Positions 7,927-40,625 of a stretch of 43,154 nucleotides of DNA are shown here, in pieces (the stretch's first letter is position 1; the number at the start of each line of letters is the position of its first letter). The DNA is taken from NCBI GenBank assembly GCA_012522535.1, contig JAAYKF010000082.1:1-43154 (forward strand), written 5' to 3'. Under the pieces are notes generated by a model, which did no database searches, had not been told where the DNA came from, and saw nothing but the letters and a program-made list of their open reading frames with translations. The stretch comes from Bacteroidales bacterium (GTDB lineage: Bacteria; Bacteroidota; Bacteroidia; Bacteroidales; WCHB1-69). A program made the position numbers and the translations under genes.

Positions 7927-10008
7927 ATGCTTAAAAAAAGACACATATTAGTCATATTGATATTTTTTGCTCTTTTCGCTACAAAGGCACAGGAGCTGGA
8001 CACCCTGCAAAGCGATTCGTTTTTGGAGTCGGTTATGGAAGATTTTGCCTCCACCATAGAGGGCGACTTCGACTATACCGAATTTTTGGAAGAGTATGAA
8101 TATTATCTTCAAAATCCAATGAACATTAATAGTCCAGATTACGATGTTTTAAGAAGAGTTTTTGCACTTACAGACTATCAAATCTATGAACTAAAGAAGC
8201 ATATTTCCATGAATGGTGGATATATGGCAACGCTATATGAGCTGGCAACTGTGAACGGATTTGACAATAAAACTATATACAGAATCTTACCATTTATTAA
8301 AGTTGAAGGCGTTAGCAATCCCTATAATCTGAAACTGAAAAATGTTCTTAAATATGGTAGAAACCAAATTTTCTTAAGGTATCAAGAAGTTTTGGAAGAA
8401 CAAAAGGGATACTCATTTGCCAGCGATTCACTATTGGAAGCCAATCCCAATGCTAGGTATCTTGGCAGTCCACAAAAATTTTACGCTAAGTATAATTTCA
8501 ACTACCAGAATAGAGTTAGATTTGGAATTACTGCCGAAAAAGATGCCGGAGAAGAGTTTTTTAAAGGCACACAAAAGCAGGGTTTCGATTTTTATTCTGC
8601 ACACCTGTTTTTACAAGATTTTGGAATTGTAAAATCCTTAGCCATAGGCGATTACCACCTCCAATTTGGTCAAGGTCTAACACTATGGTCGGGAATGGCA
8701 TACGGAAAAACCTCATCTATAACCGGTATCAAAAAAAGAGCTCAAGGCATAAGACCCTACACCTCTGCCGACGAAAATAATTTTTTTAGAGGCATTGCCA
8801 CAACCCTTAAAAAGAAAGACTGGGAATTGAGCCTATTCTACTCCAACAACAGAATTGACGCCACTGTGGACACCTTAGACGCAGAGGAAAGCTATATAGC
8901 ATCATTGCAAGAAACCGGATTTCACAGAACACCCAGAGAGTTGGCTTACAAAAACAACTTGAATTTACAACTATTTGGAACACACCTATCCTACAAAACC
9001 GAGTTTTCGAGACTTGGTTTTACATTCTACCAAATGGAGTACGACAAAGATGTGCAAGGCAGAATTTCACCCTATAATCAATTTGAATTTACTGGACTTC
9101 AAAATTCTGGATTTGGACTTAACTACGAAACCTATATCCGAAAACATAGCTTCTTCGGAGAAGTTTCCATGAGCAGTAATGGTGGCATTGCCACCCTAAA
9201 CGGACTTGTTACTCAATTAGATCCATTTTTCTCAATATCATTACTACACAGATATTACAGTAAAGATTATCAAACAAAATATTCAGTGGGATTTGGCGAA
9301 AGTAGTAGAAACAACAACGAACAGGGTCTGTTTTTTGGGACCAATATGATTTTCCATTCCAAACTCACCTTAGATGCATATGTGGATTTATTCTCCTTTA
9401 AGTGGCTAAAATTCCGTGTTGATGCTCCATCACAGGGGGTTGACTACAATTTACAACTAAATTATACCCCAGCCAGATATTCGTCAATATATCTAAGATA
9501 CAGACACAAAGGAAAGTCTATCAACATAACCGACGATATGCACTTGAACAGAGTTTATGCCAATGAAAAACGTAACTTTAGAATACATTTGCAACACAAA
9601 CCATATCACAACTTTACAGTAAAAAGTCGTGCTGAATGGTCGTCATATCAGGTGGAAGGCTCCGATGCCACCAACGGATTTTTAGTCTATCAAGATGCTC
9701 AATATAATTTTTCGAAAATACCCCTAAACCTATCTGCACGAATAGCACTTTTCAACACCGATAGCTACGACGAAAGAATCTACGCCTACGAGAGCGACGT
9801 TCTATATGCTTTCTCTATTCCCGCATACTACTACAAAGGTACAAGGGCATATTTGGTTATGAAATATCAAATTGCTAGAAATATAAACTTCTGGTTTAGA
9901 ATTGCCCAAACTTGGTATGCCGACAGACACACTGTTGCCAGCGGATTGGACGAAATTGACGGTAATAGAAAAACCGACATTAAAGCACAACTGCAAATTA
10001 AATTTTAG
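7927..10008 (+). CDS. Outer-membrane protein with N-terminal helix-hairpin-helix region
   Basis: A 693-residue protein. Residues 1 to about 21 form a signal peptide (ending TKAQ). About 64-126 form a helix-hairpin-helix-like region: NPMNIN, then LTDYQIYELKKHI, then TLYELATVNGFDNKTIYRILPFI, the pattern seen in ComEA-type repeats. From about 140 to the end it is strand-rich and aromatic, finishing KAQLQIKF as an outer-membrane barrel would. The combination is a recognised but functionally uncharacterised Bacteroidota family. Helix-hairpin-helix repeats usually bind DNA, which suggests DNA capture or uptake at the surface. That is inference. The gene directly abuts the PorV/PorQ-like gene. No terminator is seen after it. 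Confidence 0.78.
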   Translation: MLKKRHILVILIFFALFATKAQELDTLQSDSFLESVMEDFASTIEGDFDYTEFLEEYEYYLQNPMNINSPDYDVLRRVFALTDYQIYELKKHISMNGGYMATLYELATVNGFDNKTIYRILPFIKVEGVSNPYNLKLKNVLKYGRNQIFLRYQEVLEEQKGYSFASDSLLEANPNARYLGSPQKFYAKYNFNYQNRVRFGITAEKDAGEEFFKGTQKQGFDFYSAHLFLQDFGIVKSLAIGDYHLQFGQGLTLWSGMAYGKTSSITGIKKRAQGIRPYTSADENNFFRGIATTLKKKDWELSLFYSNNRIDATVDTLDAEESYIASLQETGFHRTPRELAYKNNLNLQLFGTHLSYKTEFSRLGFTFYQMEYDKDVQGRISPYNQFEFTGLQNSGFGLNYETYIRKHSFFGEVSMSSNGGIATLNGLVTQLDPFFSISLLHRYYSKDYQTKYSVGFGESSRNNNEQGLFFGTNMIFHSKLTLDAYVDLFSFKWLKFRVDAPSQGVDYNLQLNYTPARYSSIYLRYRHKGKSINITDDMHLNRVYANEKRNFRIHLQHKPYHNFTVKSRAEWSSYQVEGSDATNGFLVYQDAQYNFSKIPLNLSARIALFNTDSYDERIYAYESDVLYAFSIPAYYYKGTRAYLVMKYQIARNINFWFRIAQTWYADRHTVASGLDEIDGNRKTDIKAQLQIKF

Positions 10009-10168
10009 AGGCAAAACTTCTTGATTTAAAGCTACTAACGTGCATTAGTTAAGAAATAAACAATAAACTAAAACTAATAAGTTGCTGAAATTCAAGGGGT
10101 AAGACTTTAGCACTTTCTAAAAATGTTGTAAAAACGTTAAATAAAGCACACTTACTGAAAAATGAATA

Positions 10169-10176
10169 TATATTTG
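10169..10176 (+). promoter_or_regulatory. Promoter -7 box for the thioredoxin-fold gene
   Basis: TATATTTG matches TAnnTTTG, about 40 nt before the ATG at 10216. The rest of the 207-nt gap (10009-10215) holds no gene or clear -33 TTG. Confidence 0.5.
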
Positions 10177-10215
10177 GTTTGTATTAAACGATTTAGACAA
10201 TAAAACAAAAAGATT

Positions 10216-11670
10216 ATGAAAAGGAAATTATCAATTTTAGTAGCTATGTTTAGTTTTATAGCCATCAGCTATGCACAACTTCCCAATGGCAGCTACGCAA
10301 AAAACTTTAACCTAAAAGACATAAACGGCGACACTCACACCTTGTACGAACACACAAATGCTGGTAAACCAGTTGCGTTAGACTTTTTTGCTGTTTGGTG
10401 CGGACCTTGCTGGAGCTATCACAACACACATGCTTTCAAAACAGCCTACGAAACATGGGGACCTCCGGGAACTGACGAAATGATGCTTTTTGCTATCGAA
10501 GGTAACAACGCCACCATAGCAAATATTAATGGTAATGGTGGCAATACTAAAGGCGATTGGGTAACAGGAACTCCTTATCCTATACTTCCAACATCTTCAC
10601 CCAATAGCAGTCAAGTGGTTAACGATTATAAAATCTCTTCTTTCCCAACAGTGTATATGGTTTGCCCAAATAGAAAAGTTTACAACATAGGACAAGCAAA
10701 TGCTAACACCATCAAGTCAAGAGCAGACCAGTTATGTCCAGAAGGCCAACAATATGACAACAATGTGCAATTGTTTAATTTTGAGGCTCCAAAAGGATTA
10801 TTATGTGGAACATTAGCTCCCAGATTTTTAATGCAAAATTTAGGTGAAAATGTGTTAACATCAGCTAAAATCATAATTTCAATTGATGGAAATGTTGTTC
10901 AAGAGAAAAACTGGACTGGTAATCTTGCAAAATATGATGCTGAAACTGTATTAGTTACAGGGATTAATATTGAAAATTTGAGTTTTGGAGAACATCAGCT
11001 ATCAGTAAAATTTGAAGAAGCTAATGGTAGTGCAGAGGCATTGCCAGAAAATGAAGCTACAATTCAATTTAAAATAGCTGAACACCCAACAGATGTTACT
11101 GTAAGAATTAATGCCGACACATATTATAGCGAAGTTTCATGGTCAATTAAAGAAAATGGCACAACATTTATAGCTGCTGAAGAAGAAAAACTTCCAACGA
11201 AAAATTATACCAAAAACATTTGTCTTGACCGCAAATGCTATACTTTCACAATTAGAGATAGCTACGGCGACGGTATGACATATGACGGAACAGGTATGGC
11301 TTATTTAATTGTTGCTGGCGATACTCTCGTGGAAATTAAAGGTAACGAATATACTTATTCAAAAAGCGTTTCTTTCTGTATAGATGAAAATACTTCTATC
11401 GAAAAATCATATTTCTTTGAAAATAACATCAGCATCTATCCCAACCCAGCTACAGACAATATAAATATTGAATTTATTGCACCTGAAAGTGGTAAAATGC
11501 AAATTGATGTTTACGATTTAACAGGAAAAGTTGTACACAAAGAAATGGTTGACGCCAACGACAAAGAAATTCATAAAGTTACTATTGATAACAAAATCAA
11601 ACCTGGAATTTACTTCGTTAAACTTCAACTTGGAAACTATATGTCAACACAAAAACTGATTATCCAATAA
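10216..11670 (+). CDS. Secreted thioredoxin-fold protein with type A T9SS sorting domain
   Basis: 484 residues. Signal peptide 1-20 (ending SYA), then a TlpA/thioredoxin-like domain (about 25-175) with the redox motif WCGPC (Cys62, Cys65) and a SSFPTVYMV cis-proline region. Next come beta-rich domains and a C-terminal sorting domain from about 402, beginning ISIYPNPATDNI and ending GNYMSTQKLIIQ. The last is the classic type A signal, so the protein should cross the outer membrane by the T9SS and be anchored or released. An extracellular disulfide reductase or isomerase is the natural guess. The CxxC is intact. It is a monocistronic gene with its own terminator. Confidence 0.9.
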   Translation: MKRKLSILVAMFSFIAISYAQLPNGSYAKNFNLKDINGDTHTLYEHTNAGKPVALDFFAVWCGPCWSYHNTHAFKTAYETWGPPGTDEMMLFAIEGNNATIANINGNGGNTKGDWVTGTPYPILPTSSPNSSQVVNDYKISSFPTVYMVCPNRKVYNIGQANANTIKSRADQLCPEGQQYDNNVQLFNFEAPKGLLCGTLAPRFLMQNLGENVLTSAKIIISIDGNVVQEKNWTGNLAKYDAETVLVTGINIENLSFGEHQLSVKFEEANGSAEALPENEATIQFKIAEHPTDVTVRINADTYYSEVSWSIKENGTTFIAAEEEKLPTKNYTKNICLDRKCYTFTIRDSYGDGMTYDGTGMAYLIVAGDTLVEIKGNEYTYSKSVSFCIDENTSIEKSYFFENNISIYPNPATDNINIEFIAPESGKMQIDVYDLTGKVVHKEMVDANDKEIHKVTIDNKIKPGIYFVKLQLGNYMSTQKLIIQ

Positions 11671-11690
11671 ATCAATATACATTGTACAAA

Positions 11691-11728
11691 AAAGGGATTT
11701 CTTAAACCGAAATCCCTTTTTTTTTTAC
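11691..11728 (+). terminator. Rho-independent terminator after the thioredoxin-fold gene
   Basis: AAAGGGATTT and AAATCCCTTT pair across a short loop, followed by a run of more than eight T. Confidence 0.88.
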
Positions 11729-11750
11729 AATACAATTCGCATAATTTTCT

Positions 11751-11758
11751 TATTTTTG
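11751..11758 (+). promoter_or_regulatory. Promoter -7 box for hisS-hutH, nearly leaderless
   Basis: TATTTTTG matches TAnnTTTG and ends only 10 nt before the hisS ATG at 11769. Transcription would start about 5 nt upstream of the start codon. A -33 TTG is not obvious. Confidence 0.5.
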
Positions 11759-11768
11759 CAAAAAAAAG

Positions 11769-13133
11769 ATGGCAAAACAAAAACCAAGCATTCCAAAAGG
11801 CACACGCGATTTTCTTCCCATCGAAATGTCTCGCCGAAATTATATATTCTCAACCATTAGAACTGTTTTTGAAAATTACGGATTCCTTCCCATCGAAACT
11901 CCCGCCGTGGAGAACCTTTCGACACTTATGGGCAAATATGGCGAAGAGGGCGACCGCTTGCTTTTTAAAATCATAAACTCTGGAGACTTCCTTAACAAAG
12001 TTGAAGACAACTTTGAAGACTATAAAAAACTTCTTCCAAAAATTTCTGATAAAGGACTTCGATACGACCTAACAGTGCCATTTGCACGCTTCGTTGTAAT
12101 GAATAGAAACGAAATTACAAATCCATTCAAAAGATATCAAATACAACCAGTTTGGCGTGCTGATAGACCCCAAAAAGGACGATATCGCGAGTTTTTTCAA
12201 TGCGATGTGGACGTAATCGGAAGCAACTCCATGCTAAACGAAGCTGAACTCATTTCTATCATTTCTGATGTTTTTACAAAACTAAAAATAAATGTCACTA
12301 TAAAAATTAATAATCGAAAAATACTATCAGGAATTGCTGAAATAATAGGTCAAGCCGACAAAATTGTTGACATAACTGTTGCCATTGACAAGCTCGACAA
12401 AATTGGAATAGAAAACGTAAACAACGAACTTGCAGAAAAAGGAATTCCAGCCAAAGCTATTGAAAAACTACAACCAATTATCTTATTAAAAGGCAATACA
12501 GAAGAGAAACTTCAACAACTTAAAGAGTGGTTTGATGATATTGAAATTGGCAAAAAAGGTATAGAAGAGTTAGAAGAAACTTTCAAATTTGCAAAATTGT
12601 ACGACATAAATTTCCCCATAGAACTTGACTTAACCTTGGCTCGCGGTTTAAACTATTACACTGGAATTATTATTGAAGTAAAAGCCGAAGATGTGAATAT
12701 TGGTAGCATCACTGGTGGCGGACGTTATGACGATTTAACTGGAATTTTCGGACTAAATGATATGTCGGGTGTGGGAATTTCTTTCGGTGCCGATAGAATA
12801 TACGATGTCTTGAACGAAACCAATGCCTTCCCTTCCGAAATTGAAGCTCCTACTAAGGTACTTTTCATAAATTTCGGTATAAAAGAGCAAGAATATTTAG
12901 TTCCTATTTTACAAAAGCTCAGAAAAAACAATATCTCTGCCGAAATTTATCCTGAACATGCAAAAATTAAAAGACAAATGACATACGCAAATCAGCGAAA
13001 ATTCCCCATTGTAATTATTGCTGGTGCCAACGAAATTGACAACAAACAAGTTCAAATAAAAAACATGAAAAGTGGAGAGCAAATTCTTGTTAGCCCAGAA
13101 AACATCTTAGAAGAAATAGAAAAAATAATATAA
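11769..13133 (+). CDS. hisS: Histidyl-tRNA synthetase
   Basis: A class II synthetase of 454 residues that charges tRNA-His. Visible landmarks are the N-terminal PKGTRDFLP, motif 2 as [22 protein letters not shown], the histidine-binding [10 protein letters not shown], and motif 3 around [13 protein letters not shown]...[12 protein letters not shown]-terminal anticodon-binding domain follows. The length is somewhat above the usual 420-430 but matches the Bacteroidota form. It is followed after 16 nt by hutH, so histidine charging and histidine breakdown are probably on one transcript. Confidence 0.97.
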
Positions 13134-19796: not shown

Positions 19797-19829
19797 TTTG
19801 TGTACTTATGTGAATTTTTAATATATTTG
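19797..19829 (+). promoter_or_regulatory. Promoter for the giant PKD protein
   Basis: TTTG at 19797-19800 and TATATTTG at 19822-19829 are 21 nt apart. The box lies inside the longest open frame, which starts at a GTG at 19800. This supports the real start at 19854 or 19860. Confidence 0.6.
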
Positions 19830-19859
19830 TTTTTATTTTCTGCCCGAAAGTTTATGTTT

Positions 19860-22800
19860 ATGAGAAAATCTTTACTGTTTATTCTATCTTTTTTCACTAC
19901 TTTAGCTTTATATTCTCAGCTTCCGGTGGCAAACTTCACTCAAAATGCCACTACTGGATGCGGAAATTTAGTTGTTCAGTTTCAAGATCAATCAACGGGC
20001 AATCCTACATCGTGGTTGTGGGAGTTTGGCGAAGGCTCGGGCATTCCCAACTCTACACTACAAAATCCTGCTGTTTCGTACAATTCACCTGGGACATATA
20101 ATGTTAGGCTAACTGTTACCAACTCTATTGGTTCCAACAGCACCATAAAAATGAGTTTAATAAAAGTTCATGTTTTACCAGTTGTTGACTTCACCTCCAG
20201 CGACACTTCGGGTTGTCAGCCGTTTACAGTTTCTTTTAATCCGAACATAAGTGGTGGAGGTAATATAATTCAATATACATGGGGTTTTGGAGATGGAAAT
20301 TCATCCAGCAACGCCAGTCCTACCTACACTTATAACACTTCAGGGAACTTTGCTGTAACCCTTAATGTTCGTGACCATAACAACTGCGTTGTGTCTAAAT
20401 CTAAGTTTAATTATATTAGCGTTATGCCCAAGCCAAATGTGAGTTTTTTTGGTTTCCCGACAGACGCTTGCGACCCTCCGCTTACGACACAGTTTACAAA
20501 TATGACCCAAGGTAATAACTTGTCATTTCTTTGGAATTTTGGCGACGGCAACAGTTCAAATGCTGAAAACCCATCGAACATTTACACCACTTCTGGCTCA
20601 TATGATGTTAGCTTGCAAGTGGAAAACGAGTATGGCTGTAAGGACACCCTTAAACTCAATAGTTATATAGATGTTGGTAATTTTGAGGCTAGTTTTGTAG
20701 CCAGCGTTCAAAACGATTGTGCACCATTAACCACAACATTTACAGGTACTGCAAATGCCAATGCTCAATATGTGTGGGACTTTGGCGATGGTACTCAAGG
20801 CTCTGGAAATCAGATTAGTCATACCTATTACGAACCCGGTCAATATTCAGTTAAGGTTGTTGCTACCAACGATGCCGGTTGCATTGACTCTGTTACATAC
20901 AATAATTATATTGAGGTGTGGGATGGACCCATAATTGATATTAGTGCCGATAAGACCGAAGGTTGTCAGATGCCATTTACTGTGAACTTTACCAACAACA
21001 CCCCCAATACTGGTAGCTGTGTATGGAACTTTGGTGATGGCAGTGCAGAAGTGAGTGGTAGCAACGTTTCGCACTCGTTTGGAGATTATGGATATTATGA
21101 TGTAAGTGTTACTATTACAGACCAAAATGGCTGTACCTCCGACACCACATTTGAAGATTATATATACGTAAGGAAGCCAATTCCTTATATGGTGGCTGAC
21201 GTTAATGGTGGCTGTGCACCACTTACTGTTAACTTTTCGGACACCAGCAGTACCACATCGCCCATCACCACTTGGCATTGGGATTTTGGCGACGGTAGCA
21301 CCAGCAACTCTCCCACTCCTGCACACACATATGCCGACACAGGCACATACAACGTTACTTTGACAATTACAAATGAGGAGGGCTGTACTGAAACATATAC
21401 AGTTGATGATTTCATAGGTGCTGGTATGACCCCAGAAGTTAGCTTCTTTGGGGACTCACTTTTTGGTTGCCACCCCTTGGAAACGCAATTTACAAATACC
21501 TCCAGCGACTACGCCACCGACTGGCAGTGGCAGTTTGGCGATGGTGGCGGATTTTCGTACGAAGAGCATCCCTTTCATCAATTTCAGGATACAGGATTTG
21601 TGGATGTTACATTAATTGTTTATCACCATGGCTGTTCCGACACCTTGGTTATGGAGGATTATGTCTATGTTAGATACCCCAAACCAAATTTTGCGACACA
21701 ACATAATATAAGTTGTAGTGCACCACACACGGTTAGTTTCTCCGATATGTCGCAGGGTGCAACACAGTGGTACTGGGATTTTGGAAATGGAGAAACATCA
21801 AGCGAGCAAAACCCTTCTACTACTTATTTAACGCCGGGCTCATATTCAGTGAAATTAGTTGTGTTTAACGACACCACCTCCTGCAGCGACTCACTCACAA
21901 GGACGGCTTATATCAAAATTTCAGATATTCAGGGTGGATTTGAAATTATACCCAACGAAATTTGTCAATACTCCGAAGTCTGTTTTCAAGATACCAGCAC
22001 AAGTCTGTACCCCATTATAGATTGGAAATGGTATTATGGCGATGGTGCAACAGATTTTGATAGTACCACCACCACTTGCCACAGCTACTACCTTCCGGGT
22101 CAGTATAATGTCCGATTAAATATTACAGATGAAAACTATTGTAATAAAAACATCATCTACAACAATGCTGTTACCGTGCGGACTTTACCCTCGCCACGGA
22201 TAGGCTCTGATGCCACCATTGGCTGTGCTCCATTTACGGTTAATTTCACCGATGAATCTTTTAATCAAGAACCCACAAATATTGTTTCTTGGCTATGGGA
22301 CTTTGGAGATGGCAACACCAGCACTCAACAGAACCCCACTCATACCTACGAAGAAACAGGCACCTATAATGTGATGCTTAGCATTACGGATGCCAGAGGT
22401 TGCGACAGCTCAAAAACTTTCTTTAACTATATCACAATTTCGAAGCCACAAGCACGCTTTTTCTCCGACACTCTGATTTGCAAAAACGACGATTTAGCTT
22501 TCTTTAATCTTAGCACAGGAGATTTTTTAACTTATCTGTGGGATTTTGGCAACGGCACCACCAGCACGCAAGCCAATACAGTTTGCTCCTACAACTCCGT
22601 TGATGAAACATCCTACATAGTGAGTTTGGTTGCCACCGACGTTAATGGCTGTAAAGACTCCACATTCAAAACTGTACATGTTTTAACCCCCACTGCCGAC
22701 TTCTATGCTGCATCACAAACATCTGACTGTCCGCCCTTTAATGCATCATTCTTCAACGATTCTTCGGCAGATGTTGTTAGCTGGAAATGGGATTTTGGAG

Positions 22801-24248
22801 ATTCAAGTACTGGCTCCAGCAACACCTCATTTTTCCCCAATCCACAGCACTATTACGAAAACTCTGGAGAGTTTGATGTTCGGCTAATTGTGATAAATCA
22901 CATTGGCTGCATTGACACAGTAGTAAAGGAGAATTATATATTTGTAGATGGACCTCGAGGCTTCTTCGATTTTGAGCCAAAATCGGGTTGTGCACCACTA
23001 ACTGTTACCTTTACCTCAACCACAGAAAATGCTGTTGACTTCACTTGGGTTTTTGGAGATGGAGGGCTTGCACATGGCGAAACAGCCACATGGACATATG
23101 AAACTGGAGGCATATATCTACCTGTATTGGTTATTTCAGACTCACTAAATACCAGCATGGGCGACACTTCATTGTGTACTATTACACTTTTTCCCAGCGA
23201 TACTGTTTTGGTTATTTCTAGCGTTCCCGATTTCTCGTTTGTTGACACATTATATTGTCCCGGAGATGCAGTACAATTCACCGATGAAACCGAAGGAATG
23301 GGCGAAGTTAATAGCTGGCTTTGGGAATTTGGAGATGGCGGTACATCAACCACACAAAACCCAACTTATAGTTTTGAAACACCGGGCGAACATACTGTTA
23401 CTCTTAGCGTAATGGTGGATACCTGCGAAAGTAGTATTAGTAAAACTATCAGAGTATTCGAGTATCCTGATGTCTCTATTGTAAATAGCGAACCCGAAGG
23501 CTGCTACCCACACGAAGTAAACTTCTACGTGGATATAGGAACTGTGGCATATCCTGCCATTAGCTACACTTGGAATTTTGGCGATGGCTCGGCAGACAGA
23601 GTTCAACAATATGTTGATCATCAGTTTTTAAATTCTGGAGAGTATGATATTACGCTAACAATTCTATATGCCAACGGTTGCGAATACACATATCATTTTC
23701 CGACAGACATTGTTGTACACCCCCTTCCAACAGCCGATTTCGATTTTTATGACGATTTTGTATATCCCAGCGAGATGGTAAACTTTATTAATACCAGCAG
23801 TGGCGAAATTACAGACTGGTATTGGGATATGGGCGATGGAACTGTATATGACACCATCAACAGCTTCCAACACTCGTTTTACACTTCTGGTTTTTATGAT
23901 GTTATGCTTTGGGTTTCTACCGATGCAGGCTGTATAGACTCAACACGAAAAACTGTTACTATAACAGAAGGTGTGGTTATTCCAAATGTTTTCACCCCAA
24001 ACGGCGATGGCGTTAACGATGAGTTTGAAATTATAACTTATGGAATGTTCGAAAAGATGGAAATAAAAATTTACAATAGATGGGGCAATTTGGTTTGGCA
24101 AAACACCGACCCACTACTGTTTTGGGATGGTAAAGAGATGAGAAGCGGCGATGAGTGTGCAGAAGGAGTTTATTACTATACCTTCCAAGCCACATCTTTA
24201 ACAGGTTCGGAATATTCCAAAAATGGCTCGGTTACATTATTGAGGTAA
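19860..24248 (+). CDS. Giant multi-PKD surface protein with type B T9SS domain
   Basis: About 1462 residues from the ATG at 19860 (an ATG at 19854 adds two). A signal peptide (MRKSLLFILSFF to YSQ) is followed by about 16 tandem PKD-like domains of 80-90 residues. Most carry a W-x-FGDG core (for example WDFGDGNTS), a PG/TG-x-Y-x-V strand and a conserved cysteine pair early and late in the repeat (GCxP..., ...GC). The C-terminus VIPNVFTPNGDGVNDEF...YNRWGNLVW is the gliding-motility-associated (CHU_C, type B) T9SS signal. It should be an extracellular rod-like adhesin or matrix protein. No enzymatic domain is seen. Domain 9 has YYGDG and domain 16 has WDMGDG at the core. Confidence 0.93.
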   Translation: MRKSLLFILSFFTTLALYSQLPVANFTQNATTGCGNLVVQFQDQSTGNPTSWLWEFGEGSGIPNSTLQNPAVSYNSPGTYNVRLTVTNSIGSNSTIKMSLIKVHVLPVVDFTSSDTSGCQPFTVSFNPNISGGGNIIQYTWGFGDGNSSSNASPTYTYNTSGNFAVTLNVRDHNNCVVSKSKFNYISVMPKPNVSFFGFPTDACDPPLTTQFTNMTQGNNLSFLWNFGDGNSSNAENPSNIYTTSGSYDVSLQVENEYGCKDTLKLNSYIDVGNFEASFVASVQNDCAPLTTTFTGTANANAQYVWDFGDGTQGSGNQISHTYYEPGQYSVKVVATNDAGCIDSVTYNNYIEVWDGPIIDISADKTEGCQMPFTVNFTNNTPNTGSCVWNFGDGSAEVSGSNVSHSFGDYGYYDVSVTITDQNGCTSDTTFEDYIYVRKPIPYMVADVNGGCAPLTVNFSDTSSTTSPITTWHWDFGDGSTSNSPTPAHTYADTGTYNVTLTITNEEGCTETYTVDDFIGAGMTPEVSFFGDSLFGCHPLETQFTNTSSDYATDWQWQFGDGGGFSYEEHPFHQFQDTGFVDVTLIVYHHGCSDTLVMEDYVYVRYPKPNFATQHNISCSAPHTVSFSDMSQGATQWYWDFGNGETSSEQNPSTTYLTPGSYSVKLVVFNDTTSCSDSLTRTAYIKISDIQGGFEIIPNEICQYSEVCFQDTSTSLYPIIDWKWYYGDGATDFDSTTTTCHSYYLPGQYNVRLNITDENYCNKNIIYNNAVTVRTLPSPRIGSDATIGCAPFTVNFTDESFNQEPTNIVSWLWDFGDGNTSTQQNPTHTYEETGTYNVMLSITDARGCDSSKTFFNYITISKPQARFFSDTLICKNDDLAFFNLSTGDFLTYLWDFGNGTTSTQANTVCSYNSVDETSYIVSLVATDVNGCKDSTFKTVHVLTPTADFYAASQTSDCPPFNASFFNDSSADVVSWKWDFGDSSTGSSNTSFFPNPQHYYENSGEFDVRLIVINHIGCIDTVVKENYIFVDGPRGFFDFEPKSGCAPLTVTFTSTTENAVDFTWVFGDGGLAHGETATWTYETGGIYLPVLVISDSLNTSMGDTSLCTITLFPSDTVLVISSVPDFSFVDTLYCPGDAVQFTDETEGMGEVNSWLWEFGDGGTSTTQNPTYSFETPGEHTVTLSVMVDTCESSISKTIRVFEYPDVSIVNSEPEGCYPHEVNFYVDIGTVAYPAISYTWNFGDGSADRVQQYVDHQFLNSGEYDITLTILYANGCEYTYHFPTDIVVHPLPTADFDFYDDFVYPSEMVNFINTSSGEITDWYWDMGDGTVYDTINSFQHSFYTSGFYDVMLWVSTDAGCIDSTRKTVTITEGVVIPNVFTPNGDGVNDEFEIITYGMFEKMEIKIYNRWGNLVWQNTDPLLFWDGKEMRSGDECAEGVYYYTFQATSLTGSEYSKNGSVTLLR

Positions 24249-24260
24249 AATCACAACAAG

Positions 24261-25439
24261 CTATATATACCTCATACTCACCTCTTTAAAAAACTTAGTT
24301 TCAAGAACTTGAGCTATCTTCTTTATAACTGTACGTCTGATTTCCAAGTCCATGGGCAAATTGGGGTCTTGATGTGCAATATTGATTCTAGTTCCAATTA
24401 TAAAATCCACATAATCACTTTCGAGGAACATTTTCACAATCTGGTCGGCAGGTCCTTTACCCAATTTTGAATTTAATTTGTGTTCTTTCAAAAGTTGATA
24501 CACCCTACTAAGGGTTAAAATCCCTTCGGTAACAAGGTCAATACCCTCCATATATGAGATGGGTGGTAAATCGTAAAACTCAAAATCTAAGCTATCATTT
24601 ATTTCCAAGTTTAGCTGACGTGCCATAATATCAGCCGTTGTTCCACCACAGAGCACTTTTTTACCCTTGTAGTCTCTCACGGTATTGGCATAATCTTCAT
24701 CCTTCGACTCATCGTAGGGAGGTCCTGTGCAGAGGAGCATTTTTCGTGGTTCGCGAAAATATATAACACCACAAGTGGTATCATCTTTGGGAATATAATT
24801 GTCGTTCATATTAGCCCTTGCTACAACTTTGGATGACAATTGTGCAGCCGAAATACTGGGGTATCTATCTATCAAATTCAGCACATACTCTATAATATCT
24901 TCCCTCGGCCAGCCAAATGGATATTTGTCGCTTCCCATTCCCGACTGTTCCACACCATCTGAAAATACTATAATTCTATCCTCTTTTTGGACTTTAAAAG
25001 TACCAATCATCAGGTCTCTATCGTCCTCAACATCAAGTTTTATGGACTCCCATTTAGCATCAACCACTTTTCCGCCCCTTGTGATTATACATTGCGGATT
25101 TTCGTATTCGGTGAGAAAAACCTTGCCATCGCCTTCAATATCTATAATTGCAAAAGTTGAATAAGCAATTTTTCGCTCACTACAAATGGGTAGTGTTTTA
25201 ATTATAAATTCGGCAATCCGAGCCACATCTCTACGTTCCTTGGAAAAATTGAGTGCCATTTTTGCCGTTAGCGTGGCTAAAACATTGGCTTTAACACCAT
25301 GTCCCATTCCATCTGATAGAACAGCTATTCGGCGATTTTCCTCCTTCACCTTATCGCTTAAAAATATATCGCCACAAATACGCTCACCATGGTGATTTAT
25401 CTGACTATGATTAATTTCAATATAAACCGAATCGTCCAT
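24261..25439 (-). CDS. SpoIIE-type protein phosphatase
   Basis: 392 residues. An N-terminal PP2C/SpoIIE domain shows GDIFLSDK (Asp24), VLSDGMGHGVKANVLA (Asp43-Gly44), IVFSDGVEQ and KDDTTCGVIYF, the metal-binding aspartates of PPM-type phosphatases. After about residue 225 comes a second alpha/beta region (VLCGGTTADIMARQLNL, PPISYMEGIDLVTEGILTL) of no family I can name. The ATG overlaps the stop of the hydrogenase-like gene by one base (TAATG), so the pair is translationally coupled. In related clusters of Clostridia and Thermotogae such phosphatases are taken to be the output of a hydrogenase-like redox sensor. The target protein is not visible here. Confidence 0.85.
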   Translation of the reverse strand: MDDSVYIEINHSQINHHGERICGDIFLSDKVKEENRRIAVLSDGMGHGVKANVLATLTAKMALNFSKERRDVARIAEFIIKTLPICSERKIAYSTFAIIDIEGDGKVFLTEYENPQCIITRGGKVVDAKWESIKLDVEDDRDLMIGTFKVQKEDRIIVFSDGVEQSGMGSDKYPFGWPREDIIEYVLNLIDRYPSISAAQLSSKVVARANMNDNYIPKDDTTCGVIYFREPRKMLLCTGPPYDESKDEDYANTVRDYKGKKVLCGGTTADIMARQLNLEINDSLDFEFYDLPPISYMEGIDLVTEGILTLSRVYQLLKEHKLNSKLGKGPADQIVKMFLESDYVDFIIGTRINIAHQDPNLPMDLEIRRTVIKKIAQVLETKFFKEVSMRYI

Positions 25440-27292
25440 TATTTCTTCTGCTTTTTAAATGAATCAATTACTGAATTAAGCATTTTTTCAGTATTAGATA
25501 TTCCCTCACCCAATAAAAATCCAATATTTTGAACCATCAATAAATTTTGGTCAATAACATCCAATATTCGTTTTTCAAACTCTTCATACCTAACCCCTTC
25601 TGAGTGGAATGGGCGGAAAATACCCCCCGAAAGTTCTTTTTCTGCAATATTGAAAACACTCAAAACAAATTTTGTTCCGTTTACAGTTACGTCTTTTGTA
25701 ACAGATTCGTTGTTCTCAATGGCATACTCAAACATACTACAAACCGACGATGGGAGCATTGAATGCAAGTCGGCACCTTTAAGTCCGGGAACAACTTCGT
25801 TGATAATTTCAGCCTCTTCGCCAATCACCTTTATCAAGCTCTCGTTAGCTTCGTAGATATGTAAATTTTTGTCAACAATTATTATACCAGCCGCCAAAAT
25901 ATTTATGGTTTTGCTGAGCATATTTTGGTATTCGTGCAAGGATTTTTCATTGCTATCGGAAGAACTTCTAAGGAGGGTAATTTCCTCTTTTAGCATTTTA
26001 ATTCTTTCGTCGCTCTGCACTTTAAATTTTGAATATGCTTTTTGCGAATTTATGGTTCGTCTCAAACACATATCTGCATTGGCATATCCATGAATTATAC
26101 CCTCTGCCAGACCTTCGCAATTGTCAAAACCACAGGCACCACAACCCTCATCTTTCACTGGCAAATTGTGCAAAGTGGAGATAACCTGCTCAACATCAGC
26201 ATAGTTCAACTTTTCTCTTCTTTGGTCGTTGAGCTTAAAAATGGGTTTGGCACTAATGGATGCATAGTTTTTCAAATCCTCTTCAAACTGCTTGTCATCA
26301 TGATTAGACAAGCGTTTTTTGGCATATCTGCTCACTGCCGATGCCCTCTGATATCTGGAATTGTTAACCCCCATGCCAGGTCCCGACAAGCATCCTTTGC
26401 AATAAAACGGATTTATATGCTTGGCAATGTCACTAAAGTTTTTCGAGAAAGCATTTAATGCATCATTAATCCCATCATCTCCATCAATGGTGGTGATAAT
26501 GCTATCTAAATTACTCTCATACATATCCATTGCATCCAAAATTCCAGAGCTAATGGGGTATAAATAACCTTTGTTTGCAAATGGTTTATCAAAGTCGTAA
26601 AACTCTGTACTACTTTCAGTTATATTGTGTTTACTAAACAACTTTCTAAGTTCATAAAAGGTAATGATAGTATCGGGACGAAATGCTTTTTCATACTTTT
26701 CCACTTCTCTTTTAACTGATATGCAGGATGTTATATAAGTTATTGAAACATCTTCGTTTTCGTGAATTTTACGAGTTATTTCGCTGGCAATCATTATAGG
26801 CGATGCCACAGGGGCCAAATTTATCATCAATTCGGGAATATATTTTTCCACATATTCCACAACGGTACTACAATATGTATTTATGTAGTATTTCCCTTTG
26901 GCGTTGTCATATAAGTCTTTATATTTCTGAGCCATCACATCAACAGCAAACGCTGTTTCGTATATTTTGTCGAAGCCAAGAGTTTTGAGCATTCCTGCAA
27001 ATTTCTTATACTCGGTGATATCCTCAAATTCGGCAGAAATTGACGGGTCGCACAATGCAACTTTCAGTCCAGGTTTTTTCAGCAGAGCTTCCACATCATC
27101 ATTATTCTGACGGTATGAAATTGCCGATTGTGGACAAATATTGTAGCAAATACCACAACCAATACATCTGTCATCATCAATATGAGCCTTTTCGGCTTTA
27201 AAATCTATATCGATGGCTTTAACCGGGCATCGGCGAATGCATGCGTAACACAAGGTGCATTCAGCTGGGTTTACTTTAAATAGTGCTTCCAT
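25439..27292 (-). CDS. Hydrogenase-like Fe-S sensor with PAS domain
   Basis: 617 residues. Two 4Fe-4S clusters at the N-terminus (Cys12, 15, 18, 22 and Cys43, 46, 49, 53). Then the [FeFe]-hydrogenase large-subunit fold with its three cluster loops in altered form: NTYCS (Cys141, where catalytic enzymes have TSCCP), TSCISVK (Cys190) and YCKGC (Cys298, Cys301, where enzymes have CxxxC). Next a third 4Fe-4S domain, CGACGFDNC (Cys384, 387, 392, 409), a helical linker and a PAS domain (about 450-545). The proton-relay cysteine of L1 is replaced by Tyr, so hydrogen turnover is unlikely; this resembles the sensory HydS/HsfB class. Neither hydABC subunits nor maturases are nearby. Confidence 0.85.
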   Translation of the reverse strand: MEALFKVNPAECTLCYACIRRCPVKAIDIDFKAEKAHIDDDRCIGCGICYNICPQSAISYRQNNDDVEALLKKPGLKVALCDPSISAEFEDITEYKKFAGMLKTLGFDKIYETAFAVDVMAQKYKDLYDNAKGKYYINTYCSTVVEYVEKYIPELMINLAPVASPIMIASEITRKIHENEDVSITYITSCISVKREVEKYEKAFRPDTIITFYELRKLFSKHNITESSTEFYDFDKPFANKGYLYPISSGILDAMDMYESNLDSIITTIDGDDGINDALNAFSKNFSDIAKHINPFYCKGCLSGPGMGVNNSRYQRASAVSRYAKKRLSNHDDKQFEEDLKNYASISAKPIFKLNDQRREKLNYADVEQVISTLHNLPVKDEGCGACGFDNCEGLAEGIIHGYANADMCLRRTINSQKAYSKFKVQSDERIKMLKEEITLLRSSSDSNEKSLHEYQNMLSKTINILAAGIIIVDKNLHIYEANESLIKVIGEEAEIINEVVPGLKGADLHSMLPSSVCSMFEYAIENNESVTKDVTVNGTKFVLSVFNIAEKELSGGIFRPFHSEGVRYEEFEKRILDVIDQNLLMVQNIGFLLGEGISNTEKMLNSVIDSFKKQKK

Positions 27293-27294
27293 AT

Positions 27295-27546
27295 TTAGTC
27301 TTTTTTAAACTCGGTTGATAAAATATACATAATATCTTCGGGAGCAACCTTTGTGTATTCCTGACCATTGACAATTATTATTGGTCCCTCGGCACATTTT
27401 CCTACACAATGCTTGCCACGAAAAGAAATTTTAGATTCCAAATTATTGCTCTTTACATACTGAACAATTCTGCGATGATTTTCCTTGTTTCCACGCGAAA
27501 AACAAGAGCTACCCATGCAAATAAATATTTCAACTTTTTGATCCAT
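27295..27546 (-). CDS. Thioredoxin-like [2Fe-2S] ferredoxin
   Basis: 83 residues from the ATG at 27544-27546. The longer frame adds a hydrophobic, AT-rich stretch that looks like read-through of the promoter region. The cluster ligands are visible as FICMGSSCF (Cys10, Cys15) and KHCVGKCAEGP, the pattern of the NuoE-like thioredoxin-fold ferredoxins. It ends 2 nt before the hydrogenase-like gene, as first gene of the module, and is likely to pass electrons to or from that sensor. Confidence 0.82.
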   Translation of the reverse strand: MDQKVEIFICMGSSCFSRGNKENHRRIVQYVKSNNLESKISFRGKHCVGKCAEGPIIIVNGQEYTKVAPEDIMYILSTEFKKD

Positions 27547-39113: not shown

Positions 39114-40625
39114 ATGAAGTTTAATCTGAACAAATTAGTTAGCGATAAACCTTGGATAGGATGGGGTTTATTTTTTGGAACAGTATTTATAGTTTTTGTA
39201 TTGGGCTTATTTGCCTCTACAATAATACAAAGACGAACCGAAGCAACAGTGATGAACGTTCCACAATATGAATTGGACGAATTTGAACCACGCAACGAGT
39301 GGTGGGGAAAATCATATCCTCGCGAATATGCAACATATATGCAAATGACCGACACCTCTTTTACATCTAAATATAATGGTAGCTCCATGAGAGACGTTTT
39401 AGGTGAAGACCCAAGAGTGGTAATTCTATTTGCTGGATATGCATTTGCCATGGACTACAACCAACCACGTGGACACGTTTATGCCATTACCGACATTCAC
39501 AACACTCTAAGAACTGGAACTCCACAAAATGATGAAGATGGACCACAATTCTCCAGCTGCTGGACATGTAAAGGACCCGATGTGCCAAGAATGTACAAAG
39601 AGATTGGTGCCGAAAACTTTTTCTCATCAAAATGGGCTTCTAAACTTTCAGAGGTGGTAAACCCAATAGGCTGTGCCAACTGCCATAACCCTGAAAATCA
39701 AGAATTACGTGTTTCGCAACTACCCCACATTGAAGCAAAAGATCGTATGGGTATCGATTATAAAAAATATACCATGAACGAAATGCGTACAATGGTTTGT
39801 GCCCAGTGCCACGTGGAATATTACTTCAAAGATGAAAACAAATATGTTACATTCCCTTGGGATAATGGTTTGACAGTGGAAGGTGCTGAAGAATATTACG
39901 ATGCCATTGGTTTCACCGACTGGACACACCAATTGAGCAAAACACCCATGATTAAAGCACAACACCCCGACTATGAACTTTTTACACATAGTATTCACTA
40001 CGAGCGTGGAGTTTCGTGTGCCGACTGCCATATGCCCTACAAAACAGAAGGTAGCCAGAAAATAACCGATCACAAAATTCAAAGTCCTTTGAACAATATA
40101 GAAAACTCTTGTATGGTTTGTCACCGCGAAAACAAAGATGAACTTATTAAAAATGTTTACGACAGACAAGATAAAGTTTTTGAACAAAAAATAGCTTTGG
40201 AAGATATGCTTGTAAAAGCTCATATCGAAGCAGCATTTGCACTGGAAAAAGGTGCTACCGACGAGCAAATGAAACCAATTCATAAACATCTGCGTGCAGC
40301 TCAATGGAGATGGGACTATGTTGCAGCCAGTCATGGTGGCGCTTTCCACGCCCCTGTTGAGTGCTTGAGAATACTTGCTGCCGGAATGGACAAAGCATCT
40401 ATGGCAAGGGTAGAAACTGCTCGCCTGCTGGCAAAATTAGGATATACAGATGAGGTGAAAATGCCCGATATTAGCACAAAAGAGAAAGCTCAAGTTTACT
40501 TAGGACTTGATATTCCAAAACTGAAAAAGGAAAAAGATGAATGGCTTGCCACTAAACTTCCAGAGTGGCTGAAAAAAGCTGAAGAACGTGAAGCCAAAAT
40601 GCCTACACCAAAAAGGATAAATTAA
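39114..40625 (+). CDS. nrfA: Ammonia-forming cytochrome c nitrite reductase
   Basis: 503 residues with an uncleaved N-terminal hydrophobic anchor (about 15-38). Five heme motifs: CWTCK (149-153, the Lys-ligated active-site heme), CANCH (187-191), CAQCH (229-233), CADCH (302-306) and CMVCH (333-337). Catalytic residues fall where expected: Arg133, Tyr236 and His284 (in KAQHPD), with Glu235 as calcium ligand. It reduces nitrite to ammonium with six electrons from NrfH, in the periplasm, for respiration or detoxification. It is the second gene of nrfHA and is followed by a strong terminator. Confidence 0.97.
   Translation: MKFNLNKLVSDKPWIGWGLFFGTVFIVFVLGLFASTIIQRRTEATVMNVPQYELDEFEPRNEWWGKSYPREYATYMQMTDTSFTSKYNGSSMRDVLGEDPRVVILFAGYAFAMDYNQPRGHVYAITDIHNTLRTGTPQNDEDGPQFSSCWTCKGPDVPRMYKEIGAENFFSSKWASKLSEVVNPIGCANCHNPENQELRVSQLPHIEAKDRMGIDYKKYTMNEMRTMVCAQCHVEYYFKDENKYVTFPWDNGLTVEGAEEYYDAIGFTDWTHQLSKTPMIKAQHPDYELFTHSIHYERGVSCADCHMPYKTEGSQKITDHKIQSPLNNIENSCMVCHRENKDELIKNVYDRQDKVFEQKIALEDMLVKAHIEAAFALEKGATDEQMKPIHKHLRAAQWRWDYVAASHGGAFHAPVECLRILAAGMDKASMARVETARLLAKLGYTDEVKMPDISTKEKAQVYLGLDIPKLKKEKDEWLATKLPEWLKKAEEREAKMPTPKRIN

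Follow-up and report, generated by a model that had tools for sequence, protein, structure and literature searches.

What does a hydrogenase-like protein do when it is encoded with a phosphatase and no hydrogenase stands beside it? The question is raised by three genes on the minus strand of a 43,154-nucleotide stretch of DNA (the window), which is the entire contig JAAYKF010000082.1 of a 2.45-Mb, 96% complete Bacteroidales genome (GCA_012522535.1). The genes encode a [2Fe-2S] ferredoxin, a protein that joins a hydrogenase-like domain to a PAS domain (hereafter the sensor) and a SpoIIE-type phosphatase. Two published descriptions bear on this trio. In the accessible part of the HydDB account (2016), [FeFe] Group C3 is a phosphatase-linked, putative, possibly H2-sensing class whose role is given as undetermined (PMC5037454). 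For Ruminococcus albus, the available text describes a group C enzyme with an H-cluster/PAS subunit and a putative Ser/Thr phosphatase subunit, and reports a 111-fold drop of the HydS cluster when the bacterium is co-cultured with an H2 consumer (PMC6776011). Here, we conclude with a probability of roughly 70% that the trio is a phosphatase-linked, Group C3-type putative sensory [FeFe]-hydrogenase module, that is, a variant of an H2/redox sensor without its usual neighbour. Sensing rather than H2 production, as an earlier reading of the DNA from sequence alone (the sequence-only reading) had proposed, is the best interpretation and is in line with how group C enzymes are viewed in the literature.

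Results

The ferredoxin gene (27295..27546, minus strand; P0003, 83 amino acids) is the first of the operon and encodes a thioredoxin-like protein of the NuoE/HydC C-terminal type (PF01257, 2Fe-2S_thioredx, E = 1.6e-9). It is followed by the sensor gene (25439..27292, minus strand; P0002, 617 amino acids; Fe_hyd_lg_C, E = 3.2e-28) and by the gene for the phosphatase, which has the PP2C fold (24261..25439, minus strand; P0001, 392 amino acids; SpoIIE, E = 2.5e-13). All three reading frames are open. The spacings given by the sequence-only reading, a 2-nt gap between ferredoxin and sensor and a 1-nt overlap between sensor and phosphatase, are borne out, but the genes are adjacent and not fused as it had put it; they are probably co-transcribed. 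Promoter and terminator counts in the window are about the same as those of shuffled sequences.

At the N terminus of the sensor, two [4Fe-4S] motifs with eight cysteines in residues 12–53 are arranged as in Group C (Fer4, E = 3.1e-10; FeS, PF04060, E = 1.4e-5 in Pfam), followed by the hydrogenase-like H-domain at about residues 76–345 (Fe_hyd_lg_C, 99.5 bits against a cut-off of 22.1). Next comes a C-x2-C-x4-C-x16-C motif (C384-C387-C392-C409); PMC8163306 assigns this motif to groups C and D, and all 98 family members surveyed have it. The remainder consists of a coiled coil, a PAS domain at about 465–562 and a long C-terminal helix. Pfam makes no PAS call in P0002 itself; PAS_8 is matched in 22 of 51 homologues, and the structure model (mean predicted local distance difference test score, pLDDT, of 80) has the strand and helix order of a PAS domain over residues 469–561 at a pLDDT of about 73–86, which we count as the PAS domain of a Group C protein.

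The phosphatase scores 50.8 bits against the SpoIIE family in Pfam (cut-off 25) and divides into a catalytic domain (about residues 1–228) and a conserved alpha/beta C-terminal domain (about 229–392). Its model (mean pLDDT 87) matches the folds of 5ucg (SpoIIE, Z = 23.4) and 3ke6 (Z = 20.4). It looks active because each of the 54 sequences has all five aspartates at the PP2C metal-binding positions (24, 43, 161, 219 and 220); the structure alignments consist of 54 and 51 rows picked from the loci described below. The C-terminal half, which the sequence-only reading had described as lacking a recognised family, indeed matches no Pfam family, and nothing convincing emerges across 18 members. A profile search with this part gives phosphoheptose isomerase 3trj as the best match (E = 0.0071), with all others weaker, and in the fold searches of P0001 (Foldseek, VIA) all rows are taken by the catalytic domain. 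However, the R. albus homologue shares the half (98% of P0001 spanned at 34.8% identity, E = 1e-60, protein search), and because of this we regard it as part of this phosphatase type. The C-terminal domain is common to the R. albus, Monoglobus and Acetoanaerobium homologues, with an invariant stretch D-L-V-T-E-G. In Acetoanaerobium noterae (NZ_CP154629.1, locus L204), the homologue, including this domain, lies at 8001–9173, and there is no hydrogenase among the surrounding open reading frames.

The H-cluster loops of the sensor deviate from the standard pattern. L1 reads N-T-Y140-C141 (26870..26875, minus strand), with Cys141 as a presumed H-cluster ligand and, as the sequence-only reading had noticed, a Tyr where the proton-relay Cys would stand (C299 in CpI). 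L2 reads T-S-C190. L3, Y-C298-K-G-C301 (C298–C301 at 26390..26401, minus strand), has the C-x2-C spacing that was also noticed, one residue short of C-x3-C; the standard four-cysteine pattern with C-x3-C in L3 is absent, although C141, C190, C298 and C301 are all present. The M353 and M497 positions are occupied by Thr188 and Phe296.

These positions were followed through 98 sequences; L057 and L058 were excluded because they duplicate the G027 and G014 loci, and L068, identical to L039 (from G047), was retained. The relay position is Asn in 59 sequences, Ala in 9, Cys in 6, Thr in 5, Met, His and Val in 4 each, Tyr and Ile in 3 each and Lys in 1. With Tyr140, the window protein lacks the relay Cys as expected of Group C; R. 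albus HydS and the six relatives retain it. Tyr140 is ruled out as functionally diagnostic, given that Tyr occurs in only three members and the Cys is absent from 92 anyway. C141, C190 and C301 are each present in 97 of the 98, and the C-x2-C spacing, also found in 97, characterises the sampled Bacteroidales clade as a whole. C-x3-C is found in HydA, in the HydS proteins of R. albus and Monoglobus and in a second, 461-amino-acid sensor of the window genome. K194, which we take to correspond to K358 of CpI, is invariant, and C15 is present in 62. C298 is kept in 67 sequences and is otherwise Asn (15), Asp (10), His (5) or Lys (1). On a quick tree with long-branch warnings its loss amounts to about three changes, and a single origin is possible; the loss is, as far as this tree goes, a clade feature, with the window protein outside those clades. 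The [4Fe-4S] cysteines of P0002 are all retained. The H-cluster site thus drifts and the C-terminal cluster does not, which suggests a central part in signalling for the latter. A search by title or abstract, limited to open-licence literature, returned neither a Bacteroidales trio operon nor a shortened L3, which is weak evidence of absence.

To place the trio among its relatives, we counted neighbours in the best 80 of 441 loci from a contig scan, all Bacteroidota by title, a choice that favours close relatives of P0002. The 441 came with an alignment as query; an earlier scan with P0002 alone gave 53 pattern matches and no relative. The phosphatase gene lies no more than 1.5 kb downstream of the sensor in 77 of the 80 loci and a ferredoxin gene was found in 68, so the association of the trio is beyond chance. 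Among the 72 loci with at least 2.5 kb upstream, a divergent hydC is present in 63 and hydB in 64. The Bacteroidales trio usually stands divergently beside a hydCBA operon, and the window genome is an exception. Perlabentimonas gracilis and Plebeiobacterium sediminum are among the bacteria with the trio. The trio is also away from hydCBA in two relatives (G027 and contig C281 of G014), which show 56% identity in the sensor and 73% in the phosphatase.

A fusion of a hydrogenase and a histidine kinase is encoded in 48 of the 57 loci with at least 8 kb upstream; there, phosphatase-linked and kinase-linked sensors flank the same hydrogenase operon. At the one locus scanned for its further neighbours (L039), the fusion sensor at 10915–12915 is followed by a receiver, a receiver/histidine kinase and a Rex-like protein. 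At the same locus, the HydA beside the trio (9196–10911) carries His in place of the relay Cys (ATHCPSW), and its M353 position is Thr. That HydA proteins beside the trio are generally inactive is ruled out, the commonest L1 of 56 such proteins being SSCCPAW (20); 10 of 20 HydA loci were left out of the motif counts for being in the wrong frame. In at least 21 genomes among the matches listed (counted by eye), no more than 20 kb separates HydG from the phosphatase gene, and a homologue of an RsbW-like kinase occurs in the same stretch as the trio in 5 of the 80 loci.

We also surveyed 393 genomes of the order, accepting phosphatase matches at E up to 1e-20 and HydG matches at E up to 1e-60. 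The phosphatase is found in 137 genomes and HydG in 238; both are present in 124, the phosphatase only in 13, HydG only in 114 and neither in 142. HydG therefore accompanies the phosphatase in 124 of 137 genomes versus 114 of the 256 without it (odds ratio 11.9, Fisher test, which ignores relatedness). All 13 phosphatase-only genomes encode Fe_hyd_lg_C proteins, 12 of them with a match of at least 314 bits. The sequence-only reading had named absence of the module from genomes without maturases as an outcome that would speak against it, and this is largely what we see. A module occurring without hydrogenase is ruled out, as none of the 137 genomes is without both HydG and Fe_hyd_lg_C. HydG could serve the catalytic HydA instead, and the co-occurrence is no proof of an H-cluster in the sensor. 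Ten genomes (G037, G077, G084, G106, G169, G187, G265, G342, G365 and G405) have the phosphatase and Fe_hyd_lg_C with neither HydG nor HydF above the cut-off; several of them are 98–100% complete, and in family f22 all four sampled phosphatase-carrying genomes are without both maturases. Possible explanations are gaps in the assemblies, maturases that have diverged, or a different route of maturation.

The description of the module as stand-alone is correct for the 20 other window genes scanned with Pfam, a part of the window's open reading frames, among which there is no hydrogenase or maturase. It does not extend to the genome, in which HydABC, a second sensor, HydG and HydF are found elsewhere, as the sequence-only reading had proposed to check. 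Three Fe_hyd_lg_C proteins are encoded: P0002, a HydA with canonical loops (TSCCP, MPC, ACPGGC) from a hydBAC operon of contig C59 and, upstream of hydB, the 461-amino-acid sensor (L004:10724–12109, minus strand). The latter has no PAS domain, has STFCPAV in L1 and the C-terminal cysteine motif, and is surrounded by DRTGG, PHP and two HATPase genes. With three matches only, the genome is without a histidine-kinase-fused sensor and without the second HydA type, and because the fusion is lacking the window phosphatase cannot work against it. P0001 is the sole SpoIIE protein of the genome. The sole HATPase_c_2 (RsbW-like) protein above the cut-off, of 139 amino acids, is encoded in the C59 sensor/HydABC operon, and both are thus encoded with hydrogenase-like sensors. 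The proposed look for anti-sigma or STAS genes yielded this kinase but no free-standing STAS protein in the 96% complete genome: the sole STAS match is the C-terminal part of a 559-amino-acid transporter-like protein, and nothing scores above the cut-off for STAS_2. This makes partner switching of the classical STAS kind unlikely. We also tested for a link through PHP proteins between contig C59 and R. albus, and discarded it.

Elsewhere in the window, a 1482-amino-acid repeat-rich protein with, by eye, a gliding-motility-type C-terminal end adjoins the trio (19800–24248), and a cytochrome c552 nitrite reductase (39114–40625; PF02335, E = 1.6e-171) points to nitrite ammonification.

Discussion

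In the mechanism that we propose, electrons move between the [2Fe-2S] ferredoxin and the N-terminal [4Fe-4S] clusters of the sensor, and the H-domain, with four candidate ligand cysteines, a short L3 and no relay Cys, would respond either to H2 or to ferredoxin redox state. From the C-terminal [4Fe-4S] cluster, the signal may then travel along coiled coil and PAS domain and reach the phosphatase; this enzyme would dephosphorylate a target on Ser/Thr, and the target would in turn control genes of hydrogenase and fermentation. The sign of the response is suggested by Thermoanaerobacterium, in which HfsB is described as a PAS-[FeFe]-hydrogenase and HfsC as a serine-phosphatase homologue (available text of PMC11837493). 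In T. saccharolyticum, according to the accessible part of PMC5707799, a single deletion of hfsA or hfsB raises the ethanol yield about 1.8-fold and adhE 2–3-fold, and the effect needs intact hfsC and hfsD. These genetics fit a sensor that restrains its phosphatase, in an argument that does not separate hfsC from hfsD, and the window sensor may restrain its phosphatase in the same way. In the window lineage, the trio would have left the side of hydCBA and would now act at a distance. Its likeliest partner is the C59 HydABC/second-sensor operon with the sole RsbW-like kinase; kinase and phosphatase may have a common target within the hydrogenase system, perhaps a DRTGG protein.

Several points weigh against a Group C3-type H2/redox sensor. 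The assignment to C3 is drawn from architecture and R. albus homology, and HfsB and HfsC are likened to the window proteins by description. The H-domain of P0002 is diverged (41% identity to the rest versus 57% within the rest), and the RsbW-like kinase gene is unlinked to the trio in the window genome. None of the sequences demonstrates H-cluster loading or H2 binding. In addition, L3 lacks one residue relative to HydA and R. albus HydS, 31 of the 98 relatives carry N, D, H or K instead of C298 and keep the sensor gene nonetheless, and one protein (L043, from G041) has none of the four ligands in a trio that is intact beside hydCBA. These loop changes, the invariant C-terminal [4Fe-4S] motif and the absence of H-cluster motifs from some Hydrogenedentota group C1 proteins (PMC11406978) would suit a redox or Fe-S sensor without a working H-cluster, in which the H-domain is a scaffold, perhaps with a [4Fe-4S] cubane only and that in altered coordination, and ferredoxin redox state rather than H2 is sensed by way of the N- and C-terminal clusters. 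We consider this unlikely, given that P0002 and 66 others keep the four candidate ligands and all 98 the lysine, that the phosphatase is almost confined to genomes with HydG or a strong HydA, and that the window protein lies outside the clades that appear to have lost C298.

Still further down in probability is a slow catalytic hydrogenase with the phosphatase as a mere operon neighbour. P0002 does have the four candidate ligand cysteines, and group D TamHydS turns over slowly without C299 (accessible part of PMC8163306); however, the Thr and Phe at the M353 and M497 positions, the missing relay Cys, the PAS domain and coiled coil, a phosphatase partnership kept across phyla and the canonical HydABC elsewhere in the genome make it very improbable. 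We give equally little credence to an orphaned, decaying leftover after loss of a neighbouring hydCBA/histidine-kinase-fused sensor operon. The absence of the fused sensor and of the second HydA type and the long stem of the window clade (1.51 on the quick tree with its long-branch warnings) speak for decay, but the three frames are open, two other genomes have the same relocated trio, and the window proteins keep all catalytic Asp and all [4Fe-4S] Cys.

Going beyond the preferred C3-type sensor, we tentatively suggest, with considerable doubt, that a non-standard H-cluster site has evolved in the Bacteroidales C3-type sensors, heading to redox sensing or a new cofactor geometry, and that the window module is a free-standing, trans-acting version paired with the sole RsbW-like kinase. 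As part of the same doubtful joint reading, L3 would have shortened first, one presumed cubane ligand would then have been lost in several clades and all four in at least one protein, with the C-terminal cluster, PAS domain and phosphatase intact. With intact, shortened and ligand-less versions of the H-cluster loops, this natural series could be used to test directly whether signalling needs H2 binding. The window genome itself is a simplified case, with one SpoIIE protein, one RsbW-like kinase, no free STAS protein found and one HydABC, and because its content is so simple, a search for the target by phosphoproteomics in a cultivable relative is tractable.

A phosphatase output without precedent, as the sequence-only reading implied, is not supported, because Group C3 is already named and the R. 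albus gene order is the same; HfsB/HfsC is likewise known. As in HydDB Group C3, a PAS-bearing hydrogenase-like sensor is encoded with a Ser/Thr phosphatase, here linked by the 1-nt overlap, and the trio of most relatives is associated with hydrogenase operons; the differences are the C-x2-C in L3 and, in the window genome, a trio apart from any hydrogenase. On plasmid pRUMAL01 of R. albus 7 (NC_014824.1, located by protein search), the order is Rex, adhE, phosphotransferase, ferredoxin, ferredoxin, HydS, SpoIIE and a 4Fe-4S protein. The window shares the succession of [2Fe-2S] ferredoxin, HydS and SpoIIE, also seen in Monoglobus pectinilyticus, and the phosphatase homology including the C-terminal half, whereas R. 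albus has Cys at the relay position, C-x3-C in L3, two ferredoxin genes and additional genes for Rex, adhE and a further 4Fe-4S protein. Thermoanaerobacterium HfsABCD, as far as the available texts describe it, is alike in pairing a PAS-hydrogenase with a phosphatase and in a regulatory role known from deletions, and differs in belonging to Bacillota and in having the catalytic HfsD inside the operon.

The available parts of three papers on TamHydS (Group D) and TmHydS (Group C) (PMC8163306, PMC10055695, PMC13104023) describe the same N-terminal clusters, an H-domain without C299, the Cx2Cx4Cx16C motif and, in TmHydS, a PAS domain, which TamHydS does not have; the word phosphatase is absent from all three papers. 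It is the 461-amino-acid C59 sensor, with no PAS domain and with HATPase neighbours, that resembles the TamHydS setting in the accessible part of PMC8163306. The RsbU/SpoIIE partner-switching phosphatases have the same PP2C-fold catalytic domain with all metal-binding Asp, but have another C-terminal domain, and no free STAS substrate was found in the window genome. New here are the shortened L3, the loss of C298, the invariant C-terminal motif and a sole SpoIIE protein and sole RsbW-like kinase that are both encoded with hydrogenase-like sensors.

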